From Mongoliibacter sp. (lineage in GTDB: Bacteria > Bacteroidota > Bacteroidia > Cytophagales > Cyclobacteriaceae): a DNA stretch of 64,000 nt. This document shows, in pieces, positions 28,333 to 33,642 of this stretch. Below the pieces are notes generated by a model. The model was not told the DNA's origin. It ran no database searches and worked only from the letters and a program-made list of their open reading frames with translations. How positions within the stretch are numbered: the stretch's first letter is position 1; each line of letters starts with the position of its first letter. Position numbers and translations under genes: made by a program. The DNA is taken from positions 1-64,000 of the forward strand of contig NZ_REBN01000201.1 in the NCBI RefSeq assembly GCF_007692705.1, read 5' to 3'.

Positions 28333-30255
28333 ATGTTATCTATAAATAATCTCTCTTACTTCATTGGCGGCAGAGCATTGTACGAAAATGCCGCACTTCA
28401 TATCAAACCAAAAGATAAAATTGGACTCGTAGGATTAAATGGAACCGGGAAGTCTACACTTTTGAAAATCATCAATGGAGACTTTCAGCCAAGTTCAGGT
28501 GAAGTGCAAAAAGCCAAAGACTGCACCATAGGATTTTTGAATCAGGATATGTTATCCTATCAGTCAGAGGACCCTATTTTAGAGGTTGCCTTGGAGGCGT
28601 TTAAAGAAACCTTGGCGCTCCAGCAAGAGATAGATTTGGTTTTGAAACAAATGGAAACGGATTATTCGGAAGCTGTCATTGACAGGCTGGCTAAGCTTCA
28701 AGATAGGTTTGAAGCTAATGAAGGATATACGATCAAAGCTAAGGCAGAAGAGATCTTAGAAGGAATAGGTTTCAATACTGCCGATCTCATGCGTCCATTG
28801 AAGACTTTTTCGGGTGGTTGGAGAATGCGTGTTATGTTGGCGAAGCTTCTTTTGGAAAAACCATCATTGCTGATGCTTGATGAACCTACTAACCACTTGG
28901 ACTTACCTTCTATCCAATGGGTGGAAAATTATCTTAAAAATTACGAAGGAGCTGTAGTGGTGGTATCTCACGATCAGGAGTTTTTGGATAATTGCATAGA
29001 AACCACTGTAGAAGTATCTCATGGGACTTTGACTTCTTATTCTGGCAATTACTCTTTTTATAAAGAAGAGAAGAAAGAAAGGATGGAGATCCAGCAGAAT
29101 GCCTACGAAAATCAGCAACAAATGATCAAACAAACGGAAAAGTTTATCGAGCGTTTCCGGGCTAAAGCCACGAAATCCAATCAAGTCCAGTCAAGGGTAA
29201 AGGCACTTCAGCGTCTGGATAGGGTCAATGAAGTTGTAGACGATAATATTTCAGTGAATTTTAAGTTTAAGTTTTCTCAGAAATCAGGAAGGGATGTGGT
29301 TACTGTGGATCGTGTTTCCAAAGCCTATGGAGATCTAAAAATTCTCACCAACGCCTCTGCCAGAATTGAAAGAGGTGATAAAATCGCGTTGATTGGCGCA
29401 AATGGAAAAGGTAAGTCAACCTTATTGAGGATAATAAGTGGTACTGAAAAGGTAGATGGAAAAGTAATACACGGTCACAACGTGAAGAAATCATTTTATG
29501 CCCAACATCAATTAGAGGCTCTGAATGTAGATAATGAGATTTTACAGGAAATGGTGCAGGCCGGTTCAGGTAAAACAGAAACAGAGCTCAGGGGTGTTTT
29601 AGGATGTTTTCTTTTTTCAAATGATGATGTTTTCAAAAAAATAAAAGTATTGTCTGGAGGAGAGAAATCCAGGGTTGCACTGGCTAAAACCCTTATTTCT
29701 GAAGCAAATTTTTTATTGTTGGATGAGCCAACCAACCATTTGGATATGCAGTCTGTCAACATATTGATCCAAGCTATGGAACAGTATGAGGGTACATTTA
29801 TTACGGTATCTCATGACAGACATTTCATAAAAGGAGTAGCCAATAAGATTTGGTATATAGAAGATCAACAGGTAAAAGAGTACCTTGGAACCTATGAAGA
29901 GTATATTTATTGGAAATCTCAATTGAAAGAAGAGAAGGCCAATACAGCTGTTATACCAAAAGAAAAAAAAGAGCAGAAAAAGAAAAGACCTAATACTGAA
30001 GTAGACGAAGCTAGGAAGGAACTTAAGAAAAAAGAAACATTACTTTCCGATCTGGAGAATAAAATTCTTCAATTAGAAGAAATAAAAACTGAATTAGAAA
30101 AAGAAATGGCTGATCCCGACGTTTTCTCTGATACAGAAAAGCTTGAAAAGATTAATCAGAAATACCAGGATAAAAAGACCGATTTGGAAAAACTGAATCA
30201 GTCCTGGGAAAACTTAGTAGAAGAAATCAGCACCTTGGAAGAAATAGTATCATGA
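28333..30255 (+). CDS. ABC-F family ATPase
   Basis: Two ABC domains with Walker A (GLNGTGKST, GANGKGKST), signatures (FSGGWRMR, LSGGEKSR), LLLDEPTNHLD; C-terminal coiled coil. Confidence 0.95.
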   Translation: MLSINNLSYFIGGRALYENAALHIKPKDKIGLVGLNGTGKSTLLKIINGDFQPSSGEVQKAKDCTIGFLNQDMLSYQSEDPILEVALEAFKETLALQQEIDLVLKQMETDYSEAVIDRLAKLQDRFEANEGYTIKAKAEEILEGIGFNTADLMRPLKTFSGGWRMRVMLAKLLLEKPSLLMLDEPTNHLDLPSIQWVENYLKNYEGAVVVVSHDQEFLDNCIETTVEVSHGTLTSYSGNYSFYKEEKKERMEIQQNAYENQQQMIKQTEKFIERFRAKATKSNQVQSRVKALQRLDRVNEVVDDNISVNFKFKFSQKSGRDVVTVDRVSKAYGDLKILTNASARIERGDKIALIGANGKGKSTLLRIISGTEKVDGKVIHGHNVKKSFYAQHQLEALNVDNEILQEMVQAGSGKTETELRGVLGCFLFSNDDVFKKIKVLSGGEKSRVALAKTLISEANFLLLDEPTNHLDMQSVNILIQAMEQYEGTFITVSHDRHFIKGVANKIWYIEDQQVKEYLGTYEEYIYWKSQLKEEKANTAVIPKEKKEQKKKRPNTEVDEARKELKKKETLLSDLENKILQLEEIKTELEKEMADPDVFSDTEKLEKINQKYQDKKTDLEKLNQSWENLVEEISTLEEIVS

Positions 30256-31529
30256 AGATAAAAGCAATGAGAATTCTTATATTTTTGATAATTGTTAACA
30301 TTTGTCATATTACCCAGGCTCAGGAAGCCTATTATGATAAGGTTTTTGAAGAAAATATCCAGTCAGTAAGATTGTTTCCCCGGTCGGGTGACTTTGCTGC
30401 TCAGATGAATTCTCCTGTAATTGAGCTTAATAGTGGTGTGCCCTTAAACCTCACTTTTGATGACTTGGCATATGATCCTGATATGTATTCTGCAAAGATC
30501 ATTCACTGTAATTTTGATTGGACTCCTTCAGACCTTAAGGAAAATGAATATCTCAATCAATACAATGAGTTTAATGTCCTGGATTATGACTATTCCATTG
30601 ATACACGAATCCCTTATATCCATTATAATTTTGTGTTGCCTCCTGTCACCAAAACTGGAAATTATGTAGTGAAAGTATATAGGGGAAGAGATCAAAATCA
30701 ACCTATTATTACCAAGAGGTATATGGTCTATCAAAAAGCCGTCACACTTGCAGCAAGGATAGTACCTCCAAGCCAATCCGAGAACAGAAGAAAGGTGCAG
30801 CAAATCAATGTGAATGTGAATTATAAAGGCAGAGAGCTTTTTGATCCCAGAAATAACATGAAGGTACTGATCCGGCAAAATCAAAGATGGGACAATGTAA
30901 AGATTCTTGGAAACCCAACTATGCTAAGAGAGGATACCAAAATGATAGAATATAACCTTTTTGATGGCAGTAATGCCTTCATGGGAGGGAATGAGTTTAG
31001 ATTTTTGGATTTGAGATTTGTCAGGGCCCGAGGTATGAACGTGAAGTCAGTCCGAATGGAAGAGGATGTAGTTTACGCTGAAGCAGGGGTTGATAAGCCT
31101 AGGCCTGACGGTGTGTATTCAGAGTACTTGGATATGAATGGGCAGTATGCTATCATGAATTTGGAAAGACAAAACCATGAAAGGGAAAGCGAGTATATTG
31201 TAACCACTTTTTACCTTGATGCAGAAGGAGTCTCGGAGCAGCCATACTTGATAGGGTCTTTGACTTCTTGGGGTTTTTCGCCAGATGCCAAGATGAAATT
31301 GAATCCCAGTACCAACAAGTATGAAACGACACTGATCCTAAAACAGGGTTGGTATGATTACCAATATGCATACAAGACCGATATGGGATGGGATAAGACC
31401 CCAATAGAGGGGAGTTATTTCGAAACAGAAAATGAATACGAAGTATTTATTTATTATAGAGATATGGGCTCAAGATATGATGAACTCGTGAGTTACTTCA
31501 ACCTGAACCCTAATAAGAGAAGACTTTAA
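30252..31529 (+). CDS. DUF5103-family / type IX secretion system plug protein
   Basis: Signal peptide; YYDKVFEENIQSVRLFPRSGDFAAQMNSPVIELNSG, KIIHCNFDWTPSDL, DTRIPYIHYNFVLPPVTKTGNYVVKVYRG; overlaps ABC-F stop by 4 bp. Confidence 0.85.
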   Translation: MKIKAMRILIFLIIVNICHITQAQEAYYDKVFEENIQSVRLFPRSGDFAAQMNSPVIELNSGVPLNLTFDDLAYDPDMYSAKIIHCNFDWTPSDLKENEYLNQYNEFNVLDYDYSIDTRIPYIHYNFVLPPVTKTGNYVVKVYRGRDQNQPIITKRYMVYQKAVTLAARIVPPSQSENRRKVQQINVNVNYKGRELFDPRNNMKVLIRQNQRWDNVKILGNPTMLREDTKMIEYNLFDGSNAFMGGNEFRFLDLRFVRARGMNVKSVRMEEDVVYAEAGVDKPRPDGVYSEYLDMNGQYAIMNLERQNHERESEYIVTTFYLDAEGVSEQPYLIGSLTSWGFSPDAKMKLNPSTNKYETTLILKQGWYDYQYAYKTDMGWDKTPIEGSYFETENEYEVFIYYRDMGSRYDELVSYFNLNPNKRRL

Positions 31530-31531
31530 AC

Positions 31532-31566
31532 AAAAAAAGCCGATCCATCTGGATCGGCTTTTTTTT
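31532..31566. terminator. Bidirectional intrinsic terminator between plug and cas6-like genes
   Basis: AAAAAAAGCCGATCC-ATCT-GGATCGGCTTTTTTTT, with A-run and T-run on either side. Confidence 0.8.
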
Positions 31567-32443
31567 AATTCTGTTCTTCAGTCTCGTCAGGATTCTGAGG
31601 TTTACTTCTTTCTCTATCCTGTTGCGATTTGTAAGGGACAAAACCCTCACGTTTGAATTTGTACGGCTCTGTTCTTTGGCTTGGGGCATGGTTAGCGAGG
31701 TCTAGCATTCCAAAACCTTTATGTGTAAAGGCACCAAGTCCACATTTAAATACAAAATCCTGTACTTCTGGAGCGGCATAAAGTGTGAACGGAAGCGTGT
31801 AGCCCCTTACTTCATATTTCACGTCCATATCATAGACAGAATAGATTCTTGCAAATTTCTTTTGCTGTTCTCTCAGCTTATTTACATAATTCATATCAGG
31901 TACCACCTGGAATTTGTAAAAGGACTCCATTTGTTCCTGATTGTACCATCCTGATCTTTCCATTCTGGTCAAAGTAGATTCATATAACAAATCCGAAAAC
32001 TCATCTGTATCTGGATTGATGAATCGTTTACCTGACTCGTCATTGAATGTTGGAGTGAGAAGCACAAGTGGAGAAATACAAACAAATTTGTTTGAAGTTT
32101 CCAATTCCGGTTCAAATTCCTGCTCAGTGTACTCTGGAGAAATGATGAGGTTTCCCAACTCAATTTTTGGAGTAGCAAATACTTGCTCCAGTAAGTAGTC
32201 AATAAAATCTTCATTGGGTGATGAAAGCACTAAAGTGACTAAACTGGAATAGTAATGTAATCCACTTCTACTTACTTTGGTCTGACCTTTGAGACCAGAG
32301 AAGTTGAAGTAATTGTAGTTGAAAAACTCCTCACGTCCACCTTTTACGATCAACCCCTTTAGGAATTGCGCCAAGATGTACTGATGGTGAAATGGTAAAT
32401 AAGCACCTTTGTTTTTTAGGGAAAATATTAATCTTACTCTCAC
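31565..32443 (-). CDS. cas6: CRISPR-associated endoribonuclease Cas6-like protein, stand-alone
   Basis: RAMP-like N-terminus (MRVRLIFSLKNKGAYLPFHHQYILAQFLKGLI), NFSGLKGQ, FVCISPLVLLTP, C-terminal Gly-rich loop GLGAFTHKGFGMLDL. Confidence 0.75.
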   Translation of the reverse strand: MRVRLIFSLKNKGAYLPFHHQYILAQFLKGLIVKGGREEFFNYNYFNFSGLKGQTKVSRSGLHYYSSLVTLVLSSPNEDFIDYLLEQVFATPKIELGNLIISPEYTEQEFEPELETSNKFVCISPLVLLTPTFNDESGKRFINPDTDEFSDLLYESTLTRMERSGWYNQEQMESFYKFQVVPDMNYVNKLREQQKKFARIYSVYDMDVKYEVRGYTLPFTLYAAPEVQDFVFKCGLGAFTHKGFGMLDLANHAPSQRTEPYKFKREGFVPYKSQQDRERSKPQNPDETEEQN

Positions 32444-32516
32444 GGTATTAAAAATAAAATTTGAAACAATAATTAAACTATCTTAACTAATTATTCATTA
32501 TATAATCGTTATCAAG

Positions 32517-32524
32517 CAAAAGTA
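32517..32524 (-). promoter_or_regulatory. Candidate -7 element for cas6-like gene
   Basis: Minus-strand TACTTTTG (TAnnTTTG) between the ychF stop and the cas6-like start. Confidence 0.4.
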
Positions 32525-32544: not shown

Positions 32545-33642
32545 TTATACATTAAACCTAAAATGCATAATATCCCCATCCTTTACGATGTATTCTTTGC
32601 CTTCAATCGCTATTTTTCCGTTTTCTCTACAAGCCGCCTCTGTTTTGAATTTTTCGTAGTCCGGTAATTTAATGACTTCTGCTTTGATAAACCCTCTTTC
32701 GAAGTCAGTATGAATCACGCCTGCAGCCTGAGGAGCTTTCCATCCTCTCTTTATTGTCCAAGCCCGTACTTCCTGAACCCCAGCCGTAAAATAAGTGATC
32801 AAGTTAAGTAATTTATATGCTCCCGAAATCAGTTTGTTAAGCCCACTTTCATCTAATCCATATTCTGAAAGGAATAATTCCTTTTCTTCAATATCATCAA
32901 ATTCTGCAATCTGGGATTCTATGGCAGCACAAAGTACAATAACTTCGGCATTTTCGTCTTTAACATTTTCTTTAAGCTGAGACACGTATTCATTTCCAGT
33001 CAGTATACTTCCTTCATCTACATTGGCTACGTATAGTACAGGCTTGATAGTTAAAAGGTGTAAATCCCTTACAGCTTCCAATTCTTCCTTTTCTACTTCG
33101 ATAGCTCTGGCATTTTTACCTGACTGGAGCCCGTCCTTGAATTTTAAAAGAGTTTCCAATTCCTTTCTGGCTTTGGCATCACCGGATTTTGCGATTTTTT
33201 CCAGTCTCGCTATTTTCTTATCTACAGACTCCAAGTCTTTTAGCTGAAGTTCAGTATCTATTACCTCTTTGTCAAAGACAGGATCTACACTTCCCGCCAC
33301 GTGAACGACATTGTCATCCTTAAAACACCTAATGACATGGACAATTGCATCTACTTCACGTATGTTTGCCAAAAACTTATTTCCCAGTCCCTCACCTTTA
33401 CTTGCGCCTTTTACCAATCCAGCAATATCGACAAATTCTATTACCGTGGGGATTACTTTATGTGGGTTTACTAGGGATTCTAATACCTTAAGTCGGTTGT
33501 CAGGTACTGTAACCACGCCCACATTTGGTTCTATAGTACAAAAAGGGAAATTAGCTGCTTCTGCTTTTGCACTGGAAAGTGCGTTGAATAGTGTTGATTT
33601 TCCTACGTTGGGTAAGCCAACGATACCGCATTGTAATGCCAT
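32545..33642 (-). CDS. ychF: Redox-regulated ATPase YchF
   Basis: MALQCGIVGLPNVGKSTLFNAL, NFPFCTIEPNVGVV, DIAGLVKGASKGEGLGNKFLANIREVDAIVHVIRCF, C-terminal TGS-like domain. Confidence 0.97.
   Translation of the reverse strand: MALQCGIVGLPNVGKSTLFNALSSAKAEAANFPFCTIEPNVGVVTVPDNRLKVLESLVNPHKVIPTVIEFVDIAGLVKGASKGEGLGNKFLANIREVDAIVHVIRCFKDDNVVHVAGSVDPVFDKEVIDTELQLKDLESVDKKIARLEKIAKSGDAKARKELETLLKFKDGLQSGKNARAIEVEKEELEAVRDLHLLTIKPVLYVANVDEGSILTGNEYVSQLKENVKDENAEVIVLCAAIESQIAEFDDIEEKELFLSEYGLDESGLNKLISGAYKLLNLITYFTAGVQEVRAWTIKRGWKAPQAAGVIHTDFERGFIKAEVIKLPDYEKFKTEAACRENGKIAIEGKEYIVKDGDIMHFRFNV

Follow-up and report, generated by a model that had tools for sequence, protein, structure and literature searches.

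The locus analysed here raises the question of what a gene of the Cas6 family does between a T9SS plug gene and ychF, with no CRISPR locus in sight. The window, by which we mean the whole stretch of 64,000 nucleotides of Mongoliibacter sp. (contig NZ_REBN01000201.1), has the following features around this gene:

30252..31529, (+) strand: T9SS plug gene (PF17116), conserved convergent neighbour (Pfam, ortholog loci)
31532..31565, no strand: terminator hairpin flanked on either side by T runs, common to cas6 and the convergent plug gene (scan)
31565..32443, (-) strand: stand-alone Cas6-family CDS, GTG start, 292 aa
32408..32443, (-) strand: first 12 codons, in which the GTG and several synonymous codons are nearly fixed in relatives (nucleotide conservation)
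32450..32469, (-) strand: conserved leader motif TTGTTTCAAATTTTATTTTT, a short way 5' of the start codon (conservation)
32517..32524, (-) strand: TACTTTTG, putative Bacteroidota-type -7 promoter box (TAnnTTTG; consensus only)
32545..33642, (-) strand: ychF (YchF GTPase), conserved upstream neighbour (Pfam, ortholog loci)

Identity of the protein and the search for a CRISPR system

The original prediction described a 292-aa minus-strand ORF with a Gly-rich C-terminal loop, convergent with a plug gene with which it shares a terminator, and with ychF on its other side, on the same strand. This description was accurate: the loop, GLGAFTHKGFGMLDL, occupies residues 235-249, Pfam identified both neighbours, the hairpin scan placed the terminator at 31532-31565, and ychF lies about 100 nt upstream of the CDS. 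The promoter-like box suggested on the minus strand is also there, and its position is kept in most relatives; it is a promoter by consensus only. An Rfam scan of the window gave no match at the gathering threshold. Between 32545 and 35284 the window contains ychF, a gene for an AI-2E-family transporter and a DUF3276 (PUR-like) gene, a block that accompanies the orphan in several families. Beyond this block no gene recurred convincingly beside the orphans, and near the window orphan there was no cas gene besides cas6 itself.

By descent and fold the window protein belongs to the Cas6 family, as had been proposed. The Pfam profile PF01881 (Cas_Cas6_C) matched it with 76.3 bits (cut-off 23, E 4.7e-21), the NCBIfam equivalog TIGR01877 (cas_cas6) with 69.8 bits, above the cut-off of 58.65, and the PADLOC Cas6b profile with E 4.8e-27; in sequence comparison it matched solved Cas6 structures. 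An AlphaFold model built with 31 orthologs as input (mean pLDDT 89.8, pTM 0.85) had PhCas6nc (3qjj) as its top Foldseek match in the PDB (E 9e-18, TM 0.82 on the target), with 5yi6, 3ufc and PfuCas6 (3i4h, 3pkm) among the further best matches. Every match listed was a CRISPR protein, and the best were Cas6 proteins with a TM of at most 0.83 on the target. The protein thus has, according to AlphaFold and Foldseek, the overall Cas6 fold with two RAMP domains. It also meets the sequence criterion of the family, the C-terminal Gly-rich loop GLGAFTHKGFGM, of which G235, G237, G243 and G245 are invariant in the orthologs.

The CRISPR components sought in the source genome were not found. The source assembly is a draft of 4.42 Mb in 285 contigs, 99.77% complete, in which the window gene was the only match to Cas6_C. 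The Cas1 profile had no match in this genome, none of the type III RAMPs sought was found, and searches with the Cas3 helicase and Cas3 HD models gave nothing above the family cut-offs. The type I-B repeat consensus of the relatives, TTTCAATTCCNNNNNGGTNCGATT, was absent from the source genome and from five other CRISPR-free relatives. The Cas3 and repeat tests had working controls, because seven CRISPR-bearing relatives were positive in both: the same seven genomes matched both Cas3 models and contained 4 to 129 copies of the repeat. The search for Cas7 was less satisfactory. PF01905 was discarded as uninformative since it missed the CRISPR-bearing controls as well, and TIGR01595, with which the source genome was negative, detected only four of the seven controls.

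No direct-repeat array was found in the window, in agreement with the original prediction, and a simple array finder detected none there or at any orphan locus (2.3 Mb of fetched sequence); the same program found arrays in ten loci around other Cas6 genes. The genome-wide searches for cas1, cas3 and type III RAMPs, suggested earlier as a check, and for I-B repeats were negative throughout, and the source genome is CRISPR-free as far as tested, arrays with unrelated repeats being outside the genome-wide search. One mark of a functional Cas6 is that its genome has a CRISPR-cas locus or an array; this mark is missing, with the reservation that arrays with unrelated repeats were not exhaustively covered.

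Active site and clade-specific residues

In PfuCas6 catalysis involves Tyr31, His46 and Lys52, in Cas6e and Cas6f the catalytic His (His26 and His29, respectively) is within helix alpha-1, and crenarchaeal Cas6 enzymes, including SsoCas6, are active without a His (PMC3652601). Our comparison Cas6 set has a segment ending in LHE.GY, with a His there in 83% of the sequences. This whole catalytic-His segment, corresponding to the region of Pfu His46, is missing in 26 of 26 orphans. The canonical catalytic His, a second mark of a functional Cas6, is thus absent, although this mark is not absolute, since SsoCas6 acts without a His (PMC3652601). The orphan fails the two testable features of a CRISPR-associated endoribonuclease, the CRISPR locus and the canonical His; what it does fit is the PhCas6nc type, a Cas6 fold without the canonical catalytic residues, for which H20 may be a substitute.

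H19, H20 and Y22 had been named as candidate catalytic residues. All three are present; of these, H20 alone is invariant in the orthologs, and the positions of H19 and Y22 are variable. Together with R4, K52-G53-Q54, P182, K196, Y201 and D248, H20 belongs to the residues that are invariant in the orphan clade and rare in the comparison set, and the orphans' own invariant set also includes Q21, K195 and R199. In the model of the window protein helix alpha-1 comprises residues 21-35. Because H20 directly precedes this helix, near the position of the His in Cas6e and Cas6f, a relocated active site is possible. That H20 is in fact a relocated catalytic residue is an inference by analogy which, even granting the reading preferred below, we consider less likely than not; whether the protein cleaves RNA at all is undetermined.

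The original prediction left two possibilities: the protein processes a distant array, or it has been recruited to an RNA unrelated to CRISPR. The first would make it an ordinary Cas6 acting in trans on an array elsewhere in the source genome. It passes the cut-off of the NCBIfam equivalog for Cas6, some Cas6 proteins do work away from their arrays, and a draft in 285 contigs could be invoked in favour of this explanation. However, in a genome that is 99.8% complete we found neither Cas1 nor Cas3, no type III RAMPs and none of the relatives' I-B repeats, arrays with unrelated repeats lying outside this search; the catalytic loop is gone, and CRISPR-bearing relatives keep separate cas6 genes. 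On these grounds we regard a distant array as very unlikely and rejected this reading. Recruitment is better supported, with the substrate remaining an inference.

Loss of the catalytic loop would also be compatible with a protein that has no RNA role, the Cas6 fold being reused as a protein-protein module, linked for example to YchF or to the ribosome. The window protein is predicted to be acidic (pI 5.7), the median pI of the orphan clade (6.4) is lower than that of the comparison Cas6 proteins (8.3), and the adjacency to the gene of the GTPase YchF is conserved. On the other hand, the Gly-rich loop and many Arg and Lys positions are invariant in the orthologs, several families that keep the gene have lost the ychF adjacency, and synteny alone does not establish a functional link. 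We give this explanation little credence.

Distribution, descent and relation to CRISPR systems

The orphan had been taken for a feature of one genome. It proved instead to be a conserved lineage of the order: among 292 Cytophagales genomes 149 had a match at E <= 0.001, and 145 had an ortholog (E < 1e-48, 40-94% identity). In the source family, named Cyclobacteriaceae from the named genomes (Mongoliibacter, Arthrospiribacter, Belliella, Echinicola, Algoriphagus, Cyclobacterium and others), 41 of the 43 members had an ortholog, and in a species-level collection relatives were encoded in 406 stretches. A survey of 396 genomes across the phylum found nothing comparable outside Cytophagales: the next best matches scored no more than 91 bits, whereas every sampled member of the clade reached 387 or more. 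When the 26 orphans and 42 other Bacteroidota Cas6 proteins were placed in one maximum-likelihood tree, without archaeal sequences, the orphans formed a single clade with support 100 and a long stem.

The neighbourhood is conserved too, as the original prediction had proposed to check. The order ychF-cas6 is kept in the examined Cyclobacteriaceae loci and in members of six other families, seven families in all, and in three of those six the convergent plug gene is kept as well; in several families that still have the orphan the ychF adjacency is gone. Pairwise divergence of cas6 tracks that of ychF (Mantel r 0.887, 92 loci; none of 1000 permutations reached this value). The dN/dS of the orphan cas6 was 0.015-0.039 (for more distant pairs dS was saturated), and the protein was more conserved than YchF in 9 of 10 comparisons and more conserved than the plug and ABC-F proteins in 10 of 10. 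Monophyly, synteny and strong purifying selection are thus results of computation. They bear on the idea that the gene is the remnant of a lost CRISPR locus on its way to becoming a pseudogene, which could appeal to the lack of other cas genes nearby and to the absence of the gene from a few genera of the family. The low dN/dS, the conservation stronger than that of YchF over many genera, and orthologs that are open and full length in many families refute this idea, and we see practically no room left for it.

Seven of 50 family genomes had no Cas6_C match at all, therefore the gene can be lost. A search of phages found no ortholog, and a search of plasmids found a single one, on a 602-kb Bernardetia replicon (NZ_CP147018.1:328852-329628, 52% identity), where it is annotated as CRISPR-associated endoribonuclease Cas6; we thus see no sign of travel on mobile elements. 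Mainly vertical inheritance of the orphan Cas6, as a gene standing by itself, is part of the reading we prefer.

The orphan lineage is INDEPENDENCE from CRISPR, and genomes retain the gene with or without a CRISPR system. Cas1 was wholly absent from 66 of the 145 carriers, and full-length (type I/III-like) Cas1 from 101. CRISPR-bearing relatives have, in addition to the orphan, separate Cas6 genes, some of them close to cas1 or cas3. One genome (G206; locus L162, G206:C25:131500-151400) has an additional divergent Cas6 and no Cas1 match, possibly a reduced CRISPR locus.

A second Cas6 (PADLOC PDLC02101) was observed near the regular Cas6 in type I-B-like loci of Cytophagales, at the following positions:

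L161:6898-7554, (-) strand: second Cas6 (PDLC02101)
L050:9662-10330, (+) strand: second Cas6 (PDLC02101)
L164:9160-9879, (-) strand: second Cas6 (PDLC02101)
L168:9228-9953, (-) strand: second Cas6 (PDLC02101)

Like the orphans these proteins lack the catalytic-His segment, and they are the nearest branch to them in the tree (support 94). They differ in being encoded in CRISPR loci beside a regular Cas6 and Cas3, and in lacking the orphan-specific K-G-Q and KKFARIY motifs. The orphan lineage may derive from them; the grouping may also be an artefact of two long branches.

Cas1 is commoner in carriers (79/145, 54%) than in non-carriers (33/147, 22%; kinship uncorrected), and for this reason we retained the possibility that the core-genome paralog is a CRISPR helper or modulator, which serves, buffers or competes with type I-B/III systems, for example by binding their repeats. 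Its nearest tree branch being a loop-less second Cas6 inside CRISPR loci would suit such a role, as would the occurrence of GTTTCAATT both in leaders such as TTGTTTCAATTTT and at the 5' end of some relatives' type I-B repeats. Yet in 35 of the 79 carriers with Cas1 the only Cas1 is type II-like, and to our knowledge type II CRISPR makes no use of Cas6; the gene is kept in the 101 carriers without type I/III-like Cas1, and nearly all members of the source family have it, although such a Cas1 is present in just 8 of its 41 carriers. We regard a helper role as rather improbable.

The mRNA leader, related systems and the proposed role

A second unusual property of the gene is the conservation around its start codon. 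All 81 Cyclobacteriaceae sequences start with GTG, and the synonymous choices AGA, ATA, TTT and AAC are nearly fixed in their start region. Over codons 1-20 codon identity was 1.78 times expectation in cas6; the values for ychF (1.34) and the ABC-F gene (1.27) show this constraint in other genes as well, more weakly. Among 135 loci, distant families included, we counted 119 GTG, 8 TTG and 4 ATG starts, with the caveat that the loci are not independent. Synonymous conservation was raised a second time in codons 41-60 (about 32264-32323; 1.55 times expectation), which cover the FNFSGLKGQT motif.

The leader pattern TTGTYTMA-N(1-2)-TTTTATTTTT has exactly one match in the source genome, and five genomes from four further genera matched it either at the cas6 leader alone or there and at one other site; the pattern misses variant leaders in 4 of the 10 genomes searched. 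A first version with a fixed gap was discarded, as it missed even the site in the source genome. A 6-nt partner for the start codon was present in 63 of 67 leaders, against 38 in shuffles. We do not claim pairing between leader and start codon because 7-nt pairing was not enriched and the sequences are related. The consensus hairpin in codons 1-8 was weak (-1.9 kcal/mol) and without compensatory changes. Judged from nucleotide conservation alone, leader and start region fit a putative cis-acting mRNA element, for which no RNA structure has been demonstrated. That the orphan regulates its own translation through the leader and the GUG start region is inferred with weaker support, and is a possibility to which we incline somewhat less than to its opposite.

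It is useful to compare the orphans with known proteins. Their best fold matches, PhCas6nc (PH0350; 3QJJ/3QJL/3QJP) and a Cas6-related protein of Pyrococcus furiosus (3UFC), share the Cas6 fold; they are archaeal, only about 20% identical to the window protein, and the invariant HQ that the orphans have where helix alpha-1 begins was not seen in the aligned PH0350. Pyrococcus hosts have CRISPR systems, whereas the orphan is conserved across the order irrespective of CRISPR. PfuCas6 and the Bacteroidota type I-B Cas6 proteins (TIGR01877; PADLOC Cas6b) have the two RAMP domains and the Gly-rich loop in common with the orphans, which differ from them by the missing catalytic-His segment, the separate clade and the lack of a CRISPR locus. 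PhCas6nc is described as a Cas6 homologue without activity whose inter-domain cleft binds RNA, a mode of binding also described for PfuCas6 (PMC3727216).

The reading we prefer, and consider probable, is that the orphan is a domesticated Cas6 which binds cellular RNA and controls or processes it; substrate, binding and activity have not been shown, and both the binding and its consequence are inferred. According to this reading a Cas6-family double-RAMP RNA-binding protein would have parted from CRISPR at an early stage of Cytophagales evolution; the orphans have lost the canonical catalytic-His loop and have invariant residues of their own. A specific, probably single-stranded, cellular RNA may be bound in the cleft between the two domains, by analogy with the Pyrococcus proteins, which bind the 5' end of a repeat. 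Such binding could lead to control or processing of the RNA, which perhaps includes the protein's own mRNA; the alternative to cleavage based on H20 would be a pure RNA binder. The higher Cas1 rate in carriers, the low pI and the lack of a demonstrated RNA structure in the start region count against this reading. A bolder version, that this is the first core-genome, CRISPR-independent Cas6, an order-wide regulator whose site rebuilt around H20 cleaves or clamps a housekeeping RNA and which also controls its own translation, is unlikely to hold in full.

Cas proteins have been recruited for transposition and other roles. Solo Cas4, the casposon Cas1 and the Streptomyces I-E-derived module resemble the orphan Cas6 in being detached from CRISPR immunity, and differ from it in being other Cas proteins or multi-gene modules. 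Such detached Cas proteins are documented, as far as the available parts of the sources go, in PMC5704561, PMC9939771 and PMC8730458; the last, a review of exaptation, mentions no stand-alone Cas6 in its passages on Cas6. In the open-access literature, subscription papers being outside the scope of the search, we found no report of an orphan, solo or stand-alone Cas6 or of cas6 exaptation, and none of any Cas6 in Cytophagales or Cyclobacteriaceae. What appears to be new, within the same limits, is that across a bacterial order a Cas6 is maintained outside CRISPR, as a core gene that evolves slowly. A practical consequence is that the annotation 'Cas6' in Cytophagales does not imply CRISPR. The question of its function is directly testable because many cultured type strains (Algoriphagus, Echinicola, Belliella, Cyclobacterium) carry the gene. 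If the preferred reading is true, a CRISPR RNA processor can turn into a general RNA regulator, and its RNA target, once identified, would lead into a new pathway of regulation or processing in Bacteroidota.
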